DNA of 64,000 nucleotides. Source: Rhodopseudomonas palustris. Its GTDB lineage: Bacteria > Pseudomonadota > Alphaproteobacteria > Rhizobiales > Xanthobacteraceae. The position numbers and the translations under genes are program-made. Each line of letters begins with the position of its first letter. The first letter of the stretch is position 1. The notes under the pieces are model-generated. The model did not search any database, was not told the origin of the DNA, and was given only the letters and a program-made list of their open reading frames with translations. The stretch spans positions 45,478 to 109,477 of the forward strand of contig JACRJB010000004.1 in NCBI GenBank assembly GCA_016215605.1. Reading direction: 5' to 3'. This document shows, one piece after another, positions 56,935 to 64,000 of the stretch.

Positions 56935-57027
56935 TCGATGAAATTCGAGACCGGATGAGTGGCTCAACGGCGCCCGGATCGGGCGATCCGCCAGACAGAC
57001 AGCAATTACGCGAGACCGCGCGAAAAC

Positions 57028-57072
57028 TGGCGCACCCGACACGATTCGAACGTGTGACCTTTGCCTTCGGAG
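57028..57072 (-). tRNA. 3' fragment of a tRNA-Arg(CCG) gene (attachment site)
   Basis: On the minus strand this 45-nt piece reads CTCCGAAGGC...CCA: the anticodon loop with CCG, the variable loop, an intact T-arm (ACGTTCGAATCGTGT) and the acceptor strand GGGTGCG with CCA. The 5' half of the tRNA (D-arm and 5' acceptor strand) is absent on the 57073 side. It is the displaced 3' end left by integration of the element to its right. The reconstituted tRNA should lie at the far end, outside the window. Confidence 0.82.
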
Positions 57073-57214
57073 CAATTTAGCCTGCCTATCCTAAATGCAC
57101 GACAGGGCACGCTACAATGCGATATGTAACTGAAGATACTAGACAATTCGTATTTCCGCGCCGAACTGTCTATCCAGAATTTCGCTCCGATATCCATCCG
57201 GTTGCTTCCGTGGT

Positions 57215-57256
57215 GCTTCCGCGGAAGCAGCCCCTCACTAGCGAGGGGAACACCTC
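57215..57256 (+). promoter_or_regulatory. Hairpins covering the integrase ribosome binding site
   Basis: A 14-bp perfect palindrome GCTTCCGCGGAAGC (57215-57228) is followed by CCCCTC/ACTAGC/GAGGGG (57231-57248), whose right arm is the likely ribosome binding site of the integrase (ATG at 57257). GAGG at 57243-57246 can alternatively pair with CCTC at 57253-57256. The arrangement could limit translation. Confidence 0.55.
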
Positions 57257-58618
57257 ATGGCAAAGCTGACCAAGCGGATCGTGGACGCTGCCGATGTTCG
57301 CGAGAAGGACTATTTTATCTGGGACGACGAACTGCCCGGTTTCGGCCTCCGCGTGTTCGCCTCCGGCAAGCGCAGCTACCTCATCCAATATCGCGCTGTT
57401 GGACGCACGCGACGCTACACCATCGGCCTGCATGGCGTGTGGACGCCGGAGACAGCCCGGCAAGAAGCGAAGGTCCAACTCGGGCGCGTCGCGCGCGGCG
57501 ACAACCCTTCCGAAGAACGTCAGCTCGATCACAAGGCCATCACGGTCAAGGAGCTTTGCGCCCTCTATACCGCTGATCTGAACGCGGGCCTCATTCTGGG
57601 TAAGGGCGGGCGACCGAAAAAGCCCACCACCATCGTCACCGACACTGGCCGTATCGAGCGGCACATCATCCCGCTGATCGGCGCGCGCCGGGTCAAGGAT
57701 CTCACCAAGGCCGACATCAACAAGGTCTTGAAGGACATCATGGCCGGCAAGACGCGCGTCGCCGTCAAGACGAAAAAGCTGCGAGGAAAGGCCATTGTTC
57801 GTGGTGGCGCGGGCACCGCCACGCGCACCGTCGGCCTATTGGGCGGAATCCTCACCTACGCTGTCGATGCTGGGATTATAGAGGTCAATCCGGCGCACGG
57901 CATCAAGAAGCCCAAGGACAATGTTCGGAATCGTAGGCTGACCGAGGCGGAGTATCGCACCCTCGGGCAAATGCTTCGCGATGCCGCGGCGAACGAAAAA
58001 TACGCCATGACCGTGGACATCATCCGGCAGATCGCGCTCACCGGCTGCCGCCGCTCGGAAATGATCTCGCTAATGTGGATCGAAGCTGACACCGACGCGA
58101 GCTGCATGCGCCTGGTGGACAGCAAGGAAGGTGAGTCCATTCGTCCAATCGGATTGCCCGTCGTCGAGTATCTGGAGGAACGGCGCAAGACCGCAGCGGG
58201 CACCTATGTCTTCCCAGGTCAGGGCGAGGACCATGCGTTCGGCAGCTTCCCGAACCATTGGGAACAGATTTTCAGCGACAGTCCGCTCGCCGGCGTCACC
58301 CCGCATGTCCTGCGTCACAGCTTTGCCAGCATCGCCAACGATCTCGGTTTCACCGAGGTGACCATCGCGGCGCTCGTCGGCCACTCCAAGGGCTCGGTGA
58401 CGAGCAAATACATTCACACGCTCGACACTGCGCTCATCATGGCCGCCGACACGATCTCCGGTTACATCCAAGGGCTACTCGAGGGGATCGAATTCAAACA
58501 GACGGCCTACGCATTGGATCGTGATTCTCGTCGAGCTGCGCTTGACCTCTTCCTGACCAAAGCGGTTGGAGAGCCGGGGAACGAAGCCGAGGACGAGGAG
58601 CGTCGCTTGGCAGCTTGA
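57257..58618 (+). CDS. int: Tyrosine recombinase/integrase of the island
   Basis: This 453-aa site-specific recombinase has an N-terminal arm-binding/DUF4102-type domain (IWDDELPGFGLRVFASGKRSY), a core-binding helix bundle (about 94-215) and a catalytic domain. The catalytic residues are visible: Arg265 in TGCRRSE, His350 and Arg353 in HVLRHSF, His376 in GHSKGS and the nucleophile Tyr385. It lies 184 nt from the tRNA-Arg fragment, the usual placement for a tRNA-targeting integrase. The tail after about residue 400 is longer than usual. Confidence 0.94.
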   Translation: MAKLTKRIVDAADVREKDYFIWDDELPGFGLRVFASGKRSYLIQYRAVGRTRRYTIGLHGVWTPETARQEAKVQLGRVARGDNPSEERQLDHKAITVKELCALYTADLNAGLILGKGGRPKKPTTIVTDTGRIERHIIPLIGARRVKDLTKADINKVLKDIMAGKTRVAVKTKKLRGKAIVRGGAGTATRTVGLLGGILTYAVDAGIIEVNPAHGIKKPKDNVRNRRLTEAEYRTLGQMLRDAAANEKYAMTVDIIRQIALTGCRRSEMISLMWIEADTDASCMRLVDSKEGESIRPIGLPVVEYLEERRKTAAGTYVFPGQGEDHAFGSFPNHWEQIFSDSPLAGVTPHVLRHSFASIANDLGFTEVTIAALVGHSKGSVTSKYIHTLDTALIMAADTISGYIQGLLEGIEFKQTAYALDRDSRRAALDLFLTKAVGEPGNEAEDEERRLAA

Positions 58619-58924
58619 GGCTTGCGATCAGCCACTGGTCGGCGAGCAATTCATCGCCGCCCACGATGCAGTCGAAAAAGCTTTTTGAAGAAATCGACGA
58701 TCTTCGGTTTGGCGCCATCGGCGACCAGGTCATTTGCTCCGAACCGGCAGACCATCCTGACACTCCTGCACACCGAGCGCAGCCGTAGCGGCGCGTTGTC
58801 TCGTTCGACCGCTTGATCGCCCGCTGCCGCATTGGCTCCGCCAGCATTGGAGACTTTCTGAGGCAGGAACGTCTCGCAGAGGGGGCATCTGACGCAATCG
58901 CCTCACGCCCCCGTTGCGCGCAAT
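58619..58924. other. Intergenic stretch between convergent genes
   Basis: These 306 bases separate the ends of the integrase and the convergent caspase-helicase gene. The only structure I see is a 12-bp palindrome AAAAAGCTTTTT at 58675-58686. Neither a classic GC-rich terminator nor a gene is evident. Confidence 0.5.
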
Positions 58925-61900
58925 TTAGGGCACATATACTTCAAGGATCGGGGCGGAAGGCGCCACCGCTTCGGCCCGACGCTTGGCAACGCGCTTCGCC
59001 GCATCGCGGACAAGTGCAAGCTTGCGCCTGTCCTTGTCCACGCATGCCAGAATTTGGTCATCAGTTGCGGCGTCGATCTGTTCGGGCTCACAGAGCTGCG
59101 CGGCGGCCAAGCGGCAATAGTCGCCCCGCAGCAAATCGGCTCCAGCGAATTGGGCGAGGTCGACGGCGGCGCTGGGCACGCCATATGTCAACCGGATCGC
59201 CAGACGTCTCACACGGTCACCGAGATCGAGCGTGGGGTGCAGGATCTCGGCGACGCGAGCCGCGACCGGCATCAGATCGCAAGTCCGCGCTGCGACCGCG
59301 CGTATGGGGCCGGCGGCGCCGCCAAACGCACCACCGAACTGCGTCAGCACGCGCTCGATCTCGCTCATGGCACGACCGGACACGAACAAAAGACAAGCGA
59401 CCGCCTTCTTCGCACGCAGGGTCGCCTGATGATCTTCTGTTGTCCCGCGCTGAAGCGCGTTCAGGACGTGCCACGGCACATTCTGCCTCTGCAGCTCGTT
59501 GGGCCATAGCTGAGGCTCTTTCTGCGTGCTTTTTCGGTTGATCGGAAAAAGGAGTTGATCGACCTCGACCGTCGTTTGAGCTGCGGCAATCAGGACGGGA
59601 TCGCTGATTTCTTGGGGCTGAAGCGAGCCGAGGCAATCTACGAGCGCGACGATGGACCCGACCTCTGCCGCGCTTTCGCCAGCGAGACGGCCCAGCTTGG
59701 TCAATTCATACGCGCCTGTAGCGTTCTTCTGCACCAGGCCGTGGCGTTCCAAATCCGCTAGGGCCGAAAGCAGATCCGGCCGGCTCCACTGCCACGCGCT
59801 ATGGGCGCGCCGGGCTTGGAACGCGCCGAAGCTCGATTCCAGAAATTCGACAATCTCCTCGCTCGGCACGCCTTCGCCGGCCGCTCGTTGTGCCGCGACT
59901 AGGACGCGGATAATCAGGGAGCGTGGGTCGGTTGTACCGTCGAGGAAGCGGGACACCAAGTCTTCCGGCTCCGCGGTCACGTATCGCGACCACAGATCAT
60001 GCTCGGCGCGCGGATCGAGCGCCAGCAGATACGAAGCTCCCTTCTCGGCGAAGCCAAGCCTTCCCGCGCGACCGACTAGGTTCTTGTATTCGGCTACCGA
60101 ATAGGGCTCGTCGCCGGGATGATTCAAGCCGGCGATGATGACCGATGACGCGGGCGTGTTCACGCCCATCGCCAGCGTCGTCGTGGCTGCGATGACGCGC
60201 AGGCCCGAGCCGCTACGGCGAAATTCTTCCTCGATGACGCGCCGCTCTTCGCGGTCGAGATCCGAGTTGTGGAAAGCGACGCCGCGCCCCAGCGCGCTCC
60301 GCAAGTCGGCGCTGGCCTGCGAGGGATCGCCGCCGGGCATCTGCGTCAGCGCCTCGGCAGCCGGAGGCAATCCGAGCGACTCTGCGAGATAGTTGGCGCA
60401 GCCGCGGGCTTCGCCCTTGGTTTCGCGAAACACGATCACCTGCTGGCCTTCGGCGACAAGCTTGCGCACCAGCGGGATGATCCAATCCTGGCTGGATCCT
60501 TTGCCGCCGACAAGACGCCGAACGAGCGGCCCCTCAACCTGCTCATTGCCATTCTCCGGGTCAAGAAAGCGGAAATGCCCGGTGCCGAGCAACAAGCCCT
60601 CCTCAAGCGGAACGGGCCGCTCCGTGCGCCGCAAGAGCCGCGCGCCGAGCCATTGCTCAAGGCCGTTCGTGTCCCCGATCACAGCCGAAAGCGCGATCAG
60701 TTGGGGCTCGATCCCCTCACGCCGGCGCATCCGGATGAGCGTCAAAATGAACTCCAGATTCGCGCCGCGGCCACGGTCGGCGATCATCTGCGCTTCGTCG
60801 ATCACGATCGCGCCGACCTGCGCCAGCACATGAGGGAATGTCAGCGCGATCGCGGCGAACTTCTCATAGGTCAGGAGACCGACATCGTATTGGCCCCGCA
60901 GCAGAGGCGCGATGTCGTCCGTCTCGCCCGTCGCTTCCACCGTGCGGACCCCGAAACCGCCATAGACGCTCTCGAAGTGCCGCCGCTTGTCTGCCACAAG
61001 GGCCTTAAGCGGCAGCAGAAACAAAGCCCGTTTGCGATCCAGCACGTTCCGGAGCGCCGCGAGCTCGCCCACCATCGTCTTGCCCGAGGATGTCGGGGCC
61101 GACACCACCAGGTTCTCGCCGTCCAGCACGCCGAAGTCGGTGATGGCGGAGATCTGAAGCGCATTCAAGGACGGGATCGCTCCAGCCCAGGCGGTGACAA
61201 GCGCGTCGGGGAAACCGGCCGACGAGAGGCTGGCAAGATCGGACGTCACCTTGGCAGGCAGACGCGCCGGGAAGGCCGCCCGATACTTAGCGCCCGGCAC
61301 GAACACGGGCCACGCGACATCGCCGTCGATGCTCCCGCGCATGGTCGGGTTCTGCTCTTTGCCGCCCTGCAGCGCGGCCGCCCGGACGCGGCTCGTGACA
61401 TGCTCGAGGAGGCGGTAGAGCGAGAGCTTGCCGCCGCTCACGACTTCCTCGGCGCCACATAGCGCCTCAAGCAGAAAGTGGGTCAGAAAGCCGTGCCCGA
61501 ACCGGCGGTGCTCATAGGCGGGCTCGGTCGCCGCGGAGGCGGTGAAGATGATCCGACCAGCGCCGCCAAGCTGAGCCAGGCGCGCTTCGGCGGACAAAAG
61601 GCTGCGCGGCTTCGCATCGACGTGCAGAACCTTCGCCCCAATGCCGCCGGAAAAACAACAGTCGAGGAACAGGATCAGGCGCTTTGCCGGTATCCGCGAG
61701 AACCATTCCTGCAACAGCTCGAGCGGGATCGCGGAGCCGGCGAGATCATCTGGATTCGCGTCGTGGGTGACGAGCTCATGTGTCTCCGACCCATGGCCGG
61801 AGAACGCGATCACCACCGTATCCTCGGGGCCGCAGCCGGCCAGGTCGGCAAATGCGTCCTCAATCCGCTGCCGCGTGGCCTCCGCATCTGCCAGCAAGAC

Positions 61901-62029
61901 TGTGCTGCCGCCCAGCGTGTCGAAGAACAGTGCCTCCAGCGCCGTCGCGTCGCGACGCGCGCAGGTCAGCTCATCAATGCCGGTCGAGCTATAACGGTCG
62001 ATGCCGATGAACAGGCCGCGAAACGGCAT
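58925..62029 (-). CDS. Caspase-like protease fused to a Ski2-like helicase
   Basis: This 1034-aa protein joins two machines. Residues about 1-240 form a caspase (C14) fold with His79 in FSGHGSE and Cys125 in LFLDCCFSGG. Residues about 285-760 form a superfamily 2 helicase of the Ski2/Hel308 type: Walker A APTSSGKT (311-318), DEAQ (411-414), motif V ATTTLAMGVNTPA and motif VI LVGRAGRLG (652-659). A helical C-terminal region of about 270 residues follows. It starts 11 nt after a DUF2158 gene. The fusion suggests nucleic-acid sensing coupled to proteolysis, as in defence systems; this is inference. Confidence 0.85.
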   Translation of the reverse strand: MPFRGLFIGIDRYSSTGIDELTCARRDATALEALFFDTLGGSTVLLADAEATRQRIEDAFADLAGCGPEDTVVIAFSGHGSETHELVTHDANPDDLAGSAIPLELLQEWFSRIPAKRLILFLDCCFSGGIGAKVLHVDAKPRSLLSAEARLAQLGGAGRIIFTASAATEPAYEHRRFGHGFLTHFLLEALCGAEEVVSGGKLSLYRLLEHVTSRVRAAALQGGKEQNPTMRGSIDGDVAWPVFVPGAKYRAAFPARLPAKVTSDLASLSSAGFPDALVTAWAGAIPSLNALQISAITDFGVLDGENLVVSAPTSSGKTMVGELAALRNVLDRKRALFLLPLKALVADKRRHFESVYGGFGVRTVEATGETDDIAPLLRGQYDVGLLTYEKFAAIALTFPHVLAQVGAIVIDEAQMIADRGRGANLEFILTLIRMRRREGIEPQLIALSAVIGDTNGLEQWLGARLLRRTERPVPLEEGLLLGTGHFRFLDPENGNEQVEGPLVRRLVGGKGSSQDWIIPLVRKLVAEGQQVIVFRETKGEARGCANYLAESLGLPPAAEALTQMPGGDPSQASADLRSALGRGVAFHNSDLDREERRVIEEEFRRSGSGLRVIAATTTLAMGVNTPASSVIIAGLNHPGDEPYSVAEYKNLVGRAGRLGFAEKGASYLLALDPRAEHDLWSRYVTAEPEDLVSRFLDGTTDPRSLIIRVLVAAQRAAGEGVPSEEIVEFLESSFGAFQARRAHSAWQWSRPDLLSALADLERHGLVQKNATGAYELTKLGRLAGESAAEVGSIVALVDCLGSLQPQEISDPVLIAAAQTTVEVDQLLFPINRKSTQKEPQLWPNELQRQNVPWHVLNALQRGTTEDHQATLRAKKAVACLLFVSGRAMSEIERVLTQFGGAFGGAAGPIRAVAARTCDLMPVAARVAEILHPTLDLGDRVRRLAIRLTYGVPSAAVDLAQFAGADLLRGDYCRLAAAQLCEPEQIDAATDDQILACVDKDRRKLALVRDAAKRVAKRRAEAVAPSAPILEVYVP

Positions 62030-62040
62030 GAGGCACCACG

Positions 62041-62277
62041 CTACGCCCGAACGACGCCGACGGAGAACGCGGCTCGTGGCTTCTCAGCCTTCTCCAGCAC
62101 GACCGGCGCGAACGTGTCTTTCCGCGCGACCTGCTTGTTGCCCACCTTCTCGAACCAGACACACCAGACGGCATCCTCCTCCAGCATGGCCGTCTTCCCG
62201 ACCTGCTCGACCGTCATGATCGGCCCGCCTGACTTCACCCGCACAAGATCGCCGGGCTTGAATTCGGTAGCATCCAT
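62041..62277 (-). CDS. DUF2158 (YodC-like) small protein
   Basis: This 78-aa protein starts MDATEFKPGDLVRVKSGGP and has the SH3-like beta barrel signature of DUF2158, including MTVEQVG and VWCVWFE. It lies 11 nt upstream of the caspase-helicase gene on the same strand, so they are probably cotranscribed. DUF2158 proteins commonly act as small adaptors; no activity is known for this one. Confidence 0.85.
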   Translation of the reverse strand: MDATEFKPGDLVRVKSGGPIMTVEQVGKTAMLEEDAVWCVWFEKVGNKQVARKDTFAPVVLEKAEKPRAAFSVGVVRA

Positions 62278-62523
62278 TCTCCACGCTCCTTCTCGATGCC
62301 TATCTGTCCTCGCCAGGCACCGGAGGAGGTCGCAAGAAGCTCGCCCACGTCCCCACCACCATGAGTGGAGACGCGCACGTGCTAGGAGATCGCCCCATGC
62401 CTAACATCAATATATGGTGTGTCGGTCATTCCTTGCACAAGGATTTCGGCGAAGACCGTGTAAGCTCCTGATAGATGTTCTTGATTTGTCTCTTAGGGCT
62501 GCGCTGCGTTCCGAAGCGGGATA

Positions 62524-62548
62524 GCCCGACGGCAACCTGCCGTCGGGC
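62524..62548 (-). terminator. Hairpin after the DUF6527 gene
   Basis: A perfect 11-bp stem (GCCCGACGGCA with TGCCGTCGGGC) and ACC loop lie 7 nt beyond the DUF6527 stop codon on the minus strand. The following tract (CTATCCCGC) is poor in T, so this may be a weak terminator. The 277-nt gap to DUF2158 otherwise shows only an AT-rich patch (CAATATATGG near 62407) that may belong to a promoter. Confidence 0.6.
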
Positions 62549-62554
62549 CTATCG

Positions 62555-62995
62555 TCACGATCTGCCAGATAGCCAACGCCAGGCGCGGCGCCAGAAGCCG
62601 GGAGCCGCCTTGACGGGAGCGGGCTGAACGGCAAGTTCGATCGCTGGCGTCTGCCCGTAGAAGCGCGCTTTGGCAGCGCGGTCACGACGACGCTCGGCTT
62701 CGACCTGCTCGTCACTCCAGGGGCCGGCCTCGATCACCTTGCTGCGGTCGATCACATAGTGTGACCGGCATTTCAGCGTCCAATTGCCGATCGACGGCCG
62801 AAGGGAGACGGTCTCGCCATCGAACGTCATCTTCCAGTCCGTCGGCGTGAAGGGGGCGACGACCTCCTCGCCGCAACCGCAGCAGCAGCTGTGGGCTGAT
62901 GTGGCATATTCCATCGAAACATAGAGAATGCCTGCCTCAAGGCGCTCAGGGATGTGTTCGACGAAACGATGTTCGAGTCGCTTGTGCCGTATCAC
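62555..62995 (-). CDS. DUF6527-type cysteine-rich protein
   Basis: This 146-aa protein has a compact Cys/His cluster: SCCCGCGEEVV (residues 36-46) and KCRSHYV with Cys76 and His79, likely one zinc site. The core TDWKMTFDGETVSLRPSIGNW fits DUF6527 as I recall it, a family found beside ThiF/E1-like genes. A Trp/Arg-rich tail (FWRRAWRWLSGR) could touch a membrane or nucleic acid. The GTG at 62995 overlaps the ThiF gene's stop (GTGA), so the two are translated together. Confidence 0.78.
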   Translation of the reverse strand: MIRHKRLEHRFVEHIPERLEAGILYVSMEYATSAHSCCCGCGEEVVAPFTPTDWKMTFDGETVSLRPSIGNWTLKCRSHYVIDRSKVIEAGPWSDEQVEAERRRDRAAKARFYGQTPAIELAVQPAPVKAAPGFWRRAWRWLSGRS

Positions 62996-64000
62996 GCGAG
63001 ATCCCCGTTGATCAGCATGTTGCCGTCGGTGGTGTAGGTGCAGTGATGCTCGCGCTCGAGGTCGCGGTAGAAGCCGCGAATCTTCTTCCACTTGACGACC
63101 GCGAGGACAGCATTCAGGGCGTTGAGATCCGCGACCTGGATGTTGGAGGCGTAGATGTCCTTGGCGCCGCCGCCGACGAAGGAAATGCGCTGCCGCGCGT
63201 GATCGCGCTTCTCCGGCGTACTGGCGGTGACGCGCAGGATGCCGCCCAGCGACCCCTCGTCGAGCTCGAGCCCCATGCCAACATCGACGAACGCGGCGCC
63301 GATCGCCTCGAGCTTCTCTACGATCAGCCGCTTAGCGTCACCCGCATCGAGGGACAGGAACGCGAAGGTGACGCCGTCGAGAAGGTGAATGTTGTCGACG
63401 CCGAGCGCGACATCGTGCGCCACGATGTTCCGGTGCATCCGGCTGTAGATGCGCTTCAGGTATTCGACCTTCTTGGGCGCTTCCCGCAATTCCTCCAGGC
63501 TCGGAGCGCCCGGCGCGCGAAACGCGTTATGGGTCAGGAACTCGTCGCTGTCGAACAGCCGGATTTCCCGGACAGGCGTCTTGGCGACGAAATCCAGGAT
63601 GTAGCCGCCGGTCCCCCCGACGCCGATGATGGCGACCCGCTCGTTGACGAGTCGCTCGGTCAGGACGCCGATCCCGACACGGTCGGAGGCGGTCTCGACA
63701 TAGTTGAAGACGCTGTCCTCCTCCTCTTCCGGTTCGCGGAAGGTGCGAGGCGTCGCGCCGGACTTCAGCACTGCGGCCGGGCCCGCGAGGATATTCGCGT
63801 AGCTCGTCATCTTGTGGTGGTAGTCCGAGTAGCCGCCGTCTGGCTTGCTGGAGAAGCTGTGCGTCGCCTTCAGGCCGTGGCCGAGATCGAAGGCGCCGGC
63901 CGCATGCGAGATGCCCTGGATGGGCCTGCCGTCGGCGTGGCACGGGAAATCGCCGTCCCAGTGGATGACATGGGTGTCGGGCGGGCGCGTCTGATCTCCG
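62992..64000 (-). CDS. ThiF/E1-like adenylyltransferase with DUF6791-like N-terminus (partial)
   Basis: The frame stays open to the window edge, so the N-terminus lies beyond it; at least 335 residues are visible. The E1-type Rossmann nucleotide site is GVGGTGGYILD, and the catalytic Asp/Asn/Arg set is LFDSDEFLTHNAFRAPG. The part before it (GLKATHSFSSKPDGGYSDYHHKM) matches the DUF6791 domain as I recall it. E1-like enzymes adenylate the C-terminus of ubiquitin-like proteins. Few Cys are visible (CHADG, HHCTYTT), so whether a thioester forms is open. It couples to DUF6527 by a 4-nt overlap. Confidence 0.85.
   Translation of the reverse strand, partial: GDQTRPPDTHVIHWDGDFPCHADGRPIQGISHAAGAFDLGHGLKATHSFSSKPDGGYSDYHHKMTSYANILAGPAAVLKSGATPRTFREPEEEEDSVFNYVETASDRVGIGVLTERLVNERVAIIGVGGTGGYILDFVAKTPVREIRLFDSDEFLTHNAFRAPGAPSLEELREAPKKVEYLKRIYSRMHRNIVAHDVALGVDNIHLLDGVTFAFLSLDAGDAKRLIVEKLEAIGAAFVDVGMGLELDEGSLGGILRVTASTPEKRDHARQRISFVGGGAKDIYASNIQVADLNALNAVLAVVKWKKIRGFYRDLEREHHCTYTTDGNMLINGDLA

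Follow-up and report, generated by a model that had tools for sequence, protein, structure and literature searches.

The window analysed here is a 64,000-nucleotide stretch of DNA from Rhodopseudomonas palustris. Towards its end lies part of an apparently mobile element that carries a gene for a caspase-helicase fusion protein. The features of this region are as follows.

57025..57061, minus strand: left element boundary, similar to a tRNA 3' end (T loop, CCA), likely attachment site; identity with other records starts at 57025-57062
57257..58618, plus strand: tyrosine integrase, 453 aa (PF00589, E 3.6e-15; PF13356)
58925..62029, minus strand: coding sequence of the caspase-Hel308 fusion, 1034 aa (open reading frame, Pfam/NCBIfam matches, full-length homologues)
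58991..61246, minus strand: Hel308-type helicase, residues 262-1013, with C-terminal winged-helix and ratchet-type domains
60788..60799, minus strand: motif II DEAQ (DExQ box), DE in 87/87 loci
61079..61081, minus strand: Walker A Lys317
61295..62029, minus strand: caspase (C14) domain, residues 1-245, dyad His79 and Cys125 (Pfam, predicted structure, conservation)
61604..61606, minus strand: Arg142, 17 residues past the catalytic Cys, predicted site of self-cleavage in the loop between the subunits (conservation; low pLDDT)
61949..61951, minus strand: Asp27, predicted S1-pocket acid, paired with Asp123 (61661-61663)
62041..62277, minus strand: small DUF2158 protein of 78 aa, encoded upstream of the fusion at a distance of 11 bp and likely in the same operon (PF09926, E 1.8e-9)
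62555..63091, minus strand: DUF6527 protein, island cargo (PF20137, E 6.1e-23)
62992..63999, minus strand: DUF6791-ThiF E1-like enzyme, island cargo, cut by the contig end (PF20590, E 4.3e-37; PF00899, E 4.1e-8)

The fusion is a real, full-length gene that joins a caspase-fold domain to a complete Hel308-type helicase. Its open reading frame spans 58925-62029 on the minus strand, and the opposite (plus) frame there is interrupted by stops. The original prediction described a single 1034-aa protein with a caspase dyad followed by the core SF2 helicase motifs, and this anatomy was borne out: codons checked on the DNA placed His79 at 61793-61795, Cys125 at 61655-61657 and GRAGR at 60059-60073, and Lys317 and DEAQ likewise lay where they had been assigned. 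Three Pfam matches exceeded their curated cut-offs, namely caspase PF00656 over residues 6-232 (E 5.1e-12), DEAD over residues 292-451 (E 2.5e-21), and Helicase_C over residues 578-659 (E 3.5e-9).

Next, we examined how widely the fusion is conserved. In a search of 5.8 billion proteins, 1475 of the 7991 scored proteins had E<=1e-3. Among the 120 homologues listed, 114 were 1005-1059 aa long and all three Pfam domains were present in 114; hence the fusion is not a chance product, and the further caspase-helicase fusions that had been recommended as a search target proved to be many. Loci were then collected from genomes (80 kept of 145 confirmed) and from plasmids (17 matches, 12 of them with a coverage of at least 80%, and 10 of those 12 read). 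Eighty-seven of these 90 loci were readable, L062 having been dropped for stops/frameshifts and L037 and L060 because they are cut by contig ends; L034, among the 87, ends early at 842 aa. H79, C125, D27, D123, K317, D411, E412, G653, R654, G656 and R657 are kept in 87/87 loci, and thus both halves are co-conserved, active site with active site, across about eleven phylum labels. A tree of 64 non-redundant proteins (quick method, midpoint root, with a warning for long branches) split into two large clades, one of which holds the copy in the window. Its labels were Pseudomonadota, Actinomycetota, Chloroflexota, Cyanobacteriota, Acidobacteriota, Armatimonadota, Bacteroidota, Bacillota and two candidate phyla; a plasmid homologue added Nitrospirota. 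A scan of IMG/VR together with phage records led to nothing usable on the fusion.

The helicase half had been called Ski2-like. That it is a helicase held, while the subtype had to be refined: the best PDB sequence matches of the fusion were archaeal Hel308/Hjm (160.7 bits) and then DNA polymerase theta (130 bits), with HamB (80.2 bits) and Ski2 (54-57 bits) further down. When the predicted model of residues 262..1013 was compared with 9b15_B, 673 of the 680 residues of 9b15_B aligned, which indicates a whole Hel308 fold from the RecA pair to the C-terminal domains. PRK02362, the NCBIfam ATP-dependent DNA helicase model, spans residues 285-999 below its cut-off, and the top PADLOC match of the fusion was a HamB model (105.6 bits). 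The protein was rejected as a Hel308 orthologue, since the NCBIfam Hel308 equivalog model, spanning residues 285-716, scored 193.5 bits and missed its cut-off of 1200 by far. Compared with Hel308 and the helicase domain of polymerase theta, the fusion has a DExQ motif II and an additional N-terminal caspase, and it is bacterial and mobile. The departure of DEAQ from the usual DEAH/DExH box, already pointed out in the original prediction, is a family trait, with Q as the last residue in 84/87 loci and H in 3/87. A search for the same helicase lacking the caspase returned one of 398 genomes, the fusion's own, with two candidates scored per genome.

The caspase half was analyzed in the same way. 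Pfam and the predicted structure agree on a caspase fold with a His/Cys dyad in residues 1-245, so that structure prediction of the first ~240 residues, put forward earlier as a check, supported the fold rather than contradicted it. The domain was not accepted as an EACC1-type caspase, because it scored 89.2 bits against the curated cut-off of 140 for NF047832 (EACC1-associated caspase). Asp27, Asp123 and Cys125 align to Asp25, Asp137 and Cys139 of Arabidopsis metacaspase-4, and both acids are invariant in 87/87 loci. We take the aligned metacaspase acids to be those that set Arg/Lys specificity; the acidic S1 positions of the metacaspase type are present in the fusion, and Arg/Lys specificity itself is a prediction.

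On inspecting the loop that follows the catalytic Cys, we noted a near-invariant basic residue at position +17, that is, Arg142 in the window. Among 116 full-length relatives (the 120 listed homologues minus four lacking the caspase motif region) this position was R in 114 and K in 2; among 120 relatives of the N-terminal set it was R in 112, K in 7 and Q in 1, the Q exception having R at +16. It was basic in 235/236 homologues overall, and R in 85 and K in 2 of the 87 loci. The surroundings are variable, with entropies of 2.4-3.1 bits over +11 to +15 and 2.4-3.6 bits when +19 to +20 are included, and residues 138-142 have an AlphaFold pLDDT below 50. Mostly P, S or A precedes the basic residue and mostly D, S, N or A follows it. 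Procaspases are cut in the linker, the inter-subunit loop. Since a basic +17 residue in a variable, low-confidence loop coincides with the invariant metacaspase-type Asp27 and Asp123, Arg/Lys-specific self-processing is predicted; the interchange of R and K, the small preceding residues and the D27/D123 pair agree with self-cleavage at a basic residue within the linker. The main alternative is that Arg142 could be structural, position +8 being likewise basic in 120/120 relatives of the N-terminal set. For a comparison of +17 with stand-alone caspases, just two neighboring ones fitted the pattern, and neither had a basic residue there. Relative to metacaspases and prokaryotic orthocaspases, the fusion stands apart in the conserved basic +17 residue of the post-Cys loop and in its helicase.

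The element around the gene is apparently mobile and common to unrelated bacteria, as judged from sequence sharing. Positions 57025-64000 of the window are 98.0-99.99% identical in nine other records, from Bradyrhizobium manausense, B. campsiandrae, B. japonicum, Xanthobacter, two Sphingomonas (one a MAG) and three further MAGs; among these nine, ~15 kb are 98.9-99.99% identical. With an integrase at one end and near-identical DNA in unrelated bacteria, the description of a mobile island given earlier stands. The tRNA-like nature of the left boundary was read by eye; ARAGORN called no tRNA there, and within the own genome the boundary sequence matched nothing but itself. Three genomes (those of L015, L016 and L020) were compared further, and in these the shared DNA reaches ~30 kb from the boundary, interrupted in one of them by an insertion of ~6.5 kb. 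The island is therefore larger than the window, whose end is exactly the contig end. The fusion occurs in 1/16 genomes of the genus and 2/397 genomes of the order, the own genome counted in both (two candidates scored per genome for the order). Such rarity alongside near-identical sharing is the behavior of accessory cargo. We also noted a Hankyongella copy of the element, 92-94% identical, in which the fusion gene is broken by stops/frameshifts (L062:10001-13100), and a 4 kb contig of a Kiritimatiellae MAG (L037), nearly identical to the window and possibly mis-binned.

The island carries further cargo. The copy of the element at L094 encodes a UvrD/M78/PDDEXK protein, a multiubiquitin protein (PF14452, three matched stretches) beyond the DUF6791-ThiF E1, an AbiEii/AbiEi-type pair (L094:7790-10458) and a DUF3800 protein. 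The set UvrD/M78/PDDEXK, multiubiquitin, DUF6791/ThiF E1 and DUF6527 falls at 62555-63999 of the window and at L094:546-6413; because the same set adjoins the plasmid homologue L007, and in part L008, it may travel with the fusion. The original prediction would have fallen had homologues never occurred in defence or mobile contexts; near ten annotated plasmid homologues, in a sample that is biased as plasmids are, we found TIR, caspase, Piwi, restriction, SAVED, ABC-three-component, toxin-antitoxin or transposase/integrase genes. A Pfam tally of 192 neighboring ORFs of at least 100 aa at the genome loci (crude ORF-picking rule, nine plasmid loci left out) gave, among the families listed (the first 25 per batch), at least four caspases and at least two each of TIR_2, Mrr, N6 methylase and resolvase, as well as at least five ribonucleotide reductases and GAPDH, PhaC and other metabolic genes. 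As this survey had no random control, the defence association of the neighborhood is suggestive, not proven. In four non-redundant loci (L004, L005, L027 and L092) a TIR-type gene and a stand-alone caspase gene lie within ~4 kb of the fusion, an arrangement that recalls TIR-caspase (Thoeris-like) systems.

We then compared the fusion with known systems. According to the available part of one study, the helicase HamB of HamAB holds the effector HamA until DNA damage is met (PMC12278908). The consulted sections of another describe a protease-Hachiman that depends on residues of its helicase, its protease and its nuclease alike and whose protease-HamA cuts the pro-nuclease HamM, and also Canu, a bacterial caspase in phage defence whose CanA component carries an Ig-like domain and is partnered by a nuclease (PMC12799240). 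As in Hachiman and HamMAB, a Ski2/Hel308-like helicase would be coupled to an effector, and the effector arm of HamMAB includes a protease (PMC12278908, PMC12799240, in the same parts). Unlike in HamMAB, the protease of the fusion is a caspase, not trypsin-like, and shares one chain with the helicase; and unlike Hachiman, the fusion has a helicase nearer in sequence to Hel308 than to HamB. Membership of protease-Hachiman (HamMAB) was hence rejected, that system having a trypsin-like protease fused to HamA, plus HamM. HamA (PF08878) had no match in the own genome, but the control likewise gave none, and the contig extends just 2 kb upstream of the fusion; in the L094 copy, ten upstream ORFs were scanned and none was HamA. 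Like Canu, the fusion contains a bacterial caspase; unlike Canu, it has a helicase in cis. Membership of Canu was also rejected, as the helicase directly follows the caspase and there is no Ig-like Pfam match.

The architecture itself has been tallied before. An earlier survey assigned helicase activity to 12 of 671 caspase sequences (PMC3501461), and a count of cyanobacterial orthocaspases listed three DEAD and three Helicase_C domains (PMC8283722); the portions of both papers available propose no mechanism. Within the open-licence literature we found no description of a caspase-Hel308 defence system, a statement confined to that literature. As far as these partial sources go, the proposed helicase-sensor/protease-effector immunity in one chain is a new variant.

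The computed steps concerned the fold and family of both halves, the conservation of their active sites, the sharing of the element, the upstream DUF2158 gene and the near-invariant Arg142. By analogy with HamAB and protease-Hachiman, we infer a defence role, a protease activity and gating by DNA, and our best reading is that the fusion would work like protease-Hachiman, yet is no member of it. We put a probability of roughly 55% on immunity by a single chain, whose helicase part would detect aberrant DNA and turn on the protease part. With neither foreign nor damaged DNA engaged, the caspase would be kept as a zymogen. Once the helicase, driven by ATP, loads onto the 3'-tailed or forked DNA that phage or plasmid replication produces, the caspase would be released, as HamB reportedly releases HamA in Hachiman; a self-cut after Arg142 would give full activity with Arg/Lys specificity, and the active caspase would cleave host or partner proteins, leading to growth stop or cell death before the invader spreads. 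The earlier proposal of sensing and release is supported in part, as to the caspase and helicase anatomy, with Hel308-like in place of Ski2-like.

The genes directly upstream bear on what the caspase might cleave. The DUF2158 gene, which had been overlooked, sits between the DUF6527 gene and the fusion, and DUF2158 occupies the same upstream spot (2-11 bp) in 7/64 non-redundant loci, two in the clade of the window and five in the other. Its linked loci fall in separate clades, so at least two changes are required on the tree, counting labelled rows only. The DUF2158 proteins of the window and L007 share 68% identity over 66 residues, and the two fusions share 39%. Among the matches listed, eleven contigs are apparently common to relatives of DUF2158 and of the fusion, consistent with linkage. 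In other clades the same spot (2-25 bp) is taken by a 201-204-aa LGELLFYRR family with no Pfam match or by an Mrr_cat nuclease, and in another clade by a gene pair, the first with a weak AbiEi-type match (E 0.0067) and the second with no Pfam match. An RNase_T-BRCT exonuclease lies 116 bp downstream of the fusion in L010. Separately, a 201-208-aa family adjoins the fusion at L004:7390-7995, L005:7388-7993, L025:9380-9994 and L050:13101-13727; the three members scanned (L004, L005 and L025) had no Pfam match above the cut-off and end in DLLKKLGG, a Gly-Gly tail.

Such a succession of different neighbors in different clades, with the downstream exonuclease, could mean that the caspase activates a pro-enzyme encoded next to it (DUF2158, the Lentzea/Nocardia Mrr-type nuclease, the Pinirhizobacter-type gene pair or the Hymenobacter exonuclease), which would be the real effector; the cutting of HamM by protease-HamA offers a precedent, going by the part of PMC12799240 consulted. 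However, the commonest neighbor family, DUF2158, is present in so few loci that it was rejected as a fixed partner for the whole family and is not required family-wide, and the fusion seems able to act with no fixed partner. We therefore consider this explanation unlikely.

Less probable still is a role in repair or replication, on behalf of the element or of its host, rather than immunity, in which the helicase would travel on DNA and the caspase would clip proteins that are crosslinked to it or block its path. Hel308 and polymerase theta, the nearest solved relatives, are repair helicases, and a motor and a protease in one chain would suit the removal of roadblocks. The patchy, horizontally moved distribution and the defence-type cargo are, however, unlike those of a housekeeping repair gene, and the conserved linker Arg suggests a regulated zymogen. 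Finally, the fusion might serve the element for its own maintenance (addiction) or against competitors, rather than against phages, with DUF2158 acting as the antidote. The antitoxin-like order of the small upstream gene, the spread of the element and the plasmid copies could point to this, but it is improbable, given how few loci carry DUF2158 and that addiction has no need for an ATP-driven DNA helicase.

Within the preferred reading of a helicase-gated caspase, the DUF2158 protein may act as a regulator, possibly holding the protease by its C-terminal tail, which is often Arg-Ala/Gly/Ser/Thr. This R-[AGST] tail was seen in 65/90 length-intact relatives; among the remaining 25, VV is the ending in 11. 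By contrast, DUF2158 genes elsewhere in the order had neither a fusion within ~1.5 kb nor the tail in 28/28 cases; this set comprised 29 loci from 22 of 150 genomes searched, less the linked copy of the window (L110), with ~1.5 kb covered on each side and tails read by eye. The tail as a pseudo-substrate is too weak an indication to lean on. The most specific version of the proposal is a widespread immune system built on an Arg-specific self-processing procaspase, whose lock would be opened by its own Hel308-type helicase, which would be cut at R142, and which would be restrained by a DUF2158 Arg-Ala/Gly tail mimicking the cut site, in effect a one-chain 'DNA-sensing inflammasome'. We offer this version tentatively and consider it less likely than not.

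If the proposal is true, a caspase, the type of protease at work in animal cell death and inflammation, would be joined to a DNA-repair-type helicase in one protein. The fusion would then allow the switching of a caspase by a DNA motor to be studied in a simple setting, with C125, K317, R142 and D123 as the key residues. It would also suggest that helicase-gated proteases arose more than once, in protease-Hachiman and in the caspase-Hel308 fusion.
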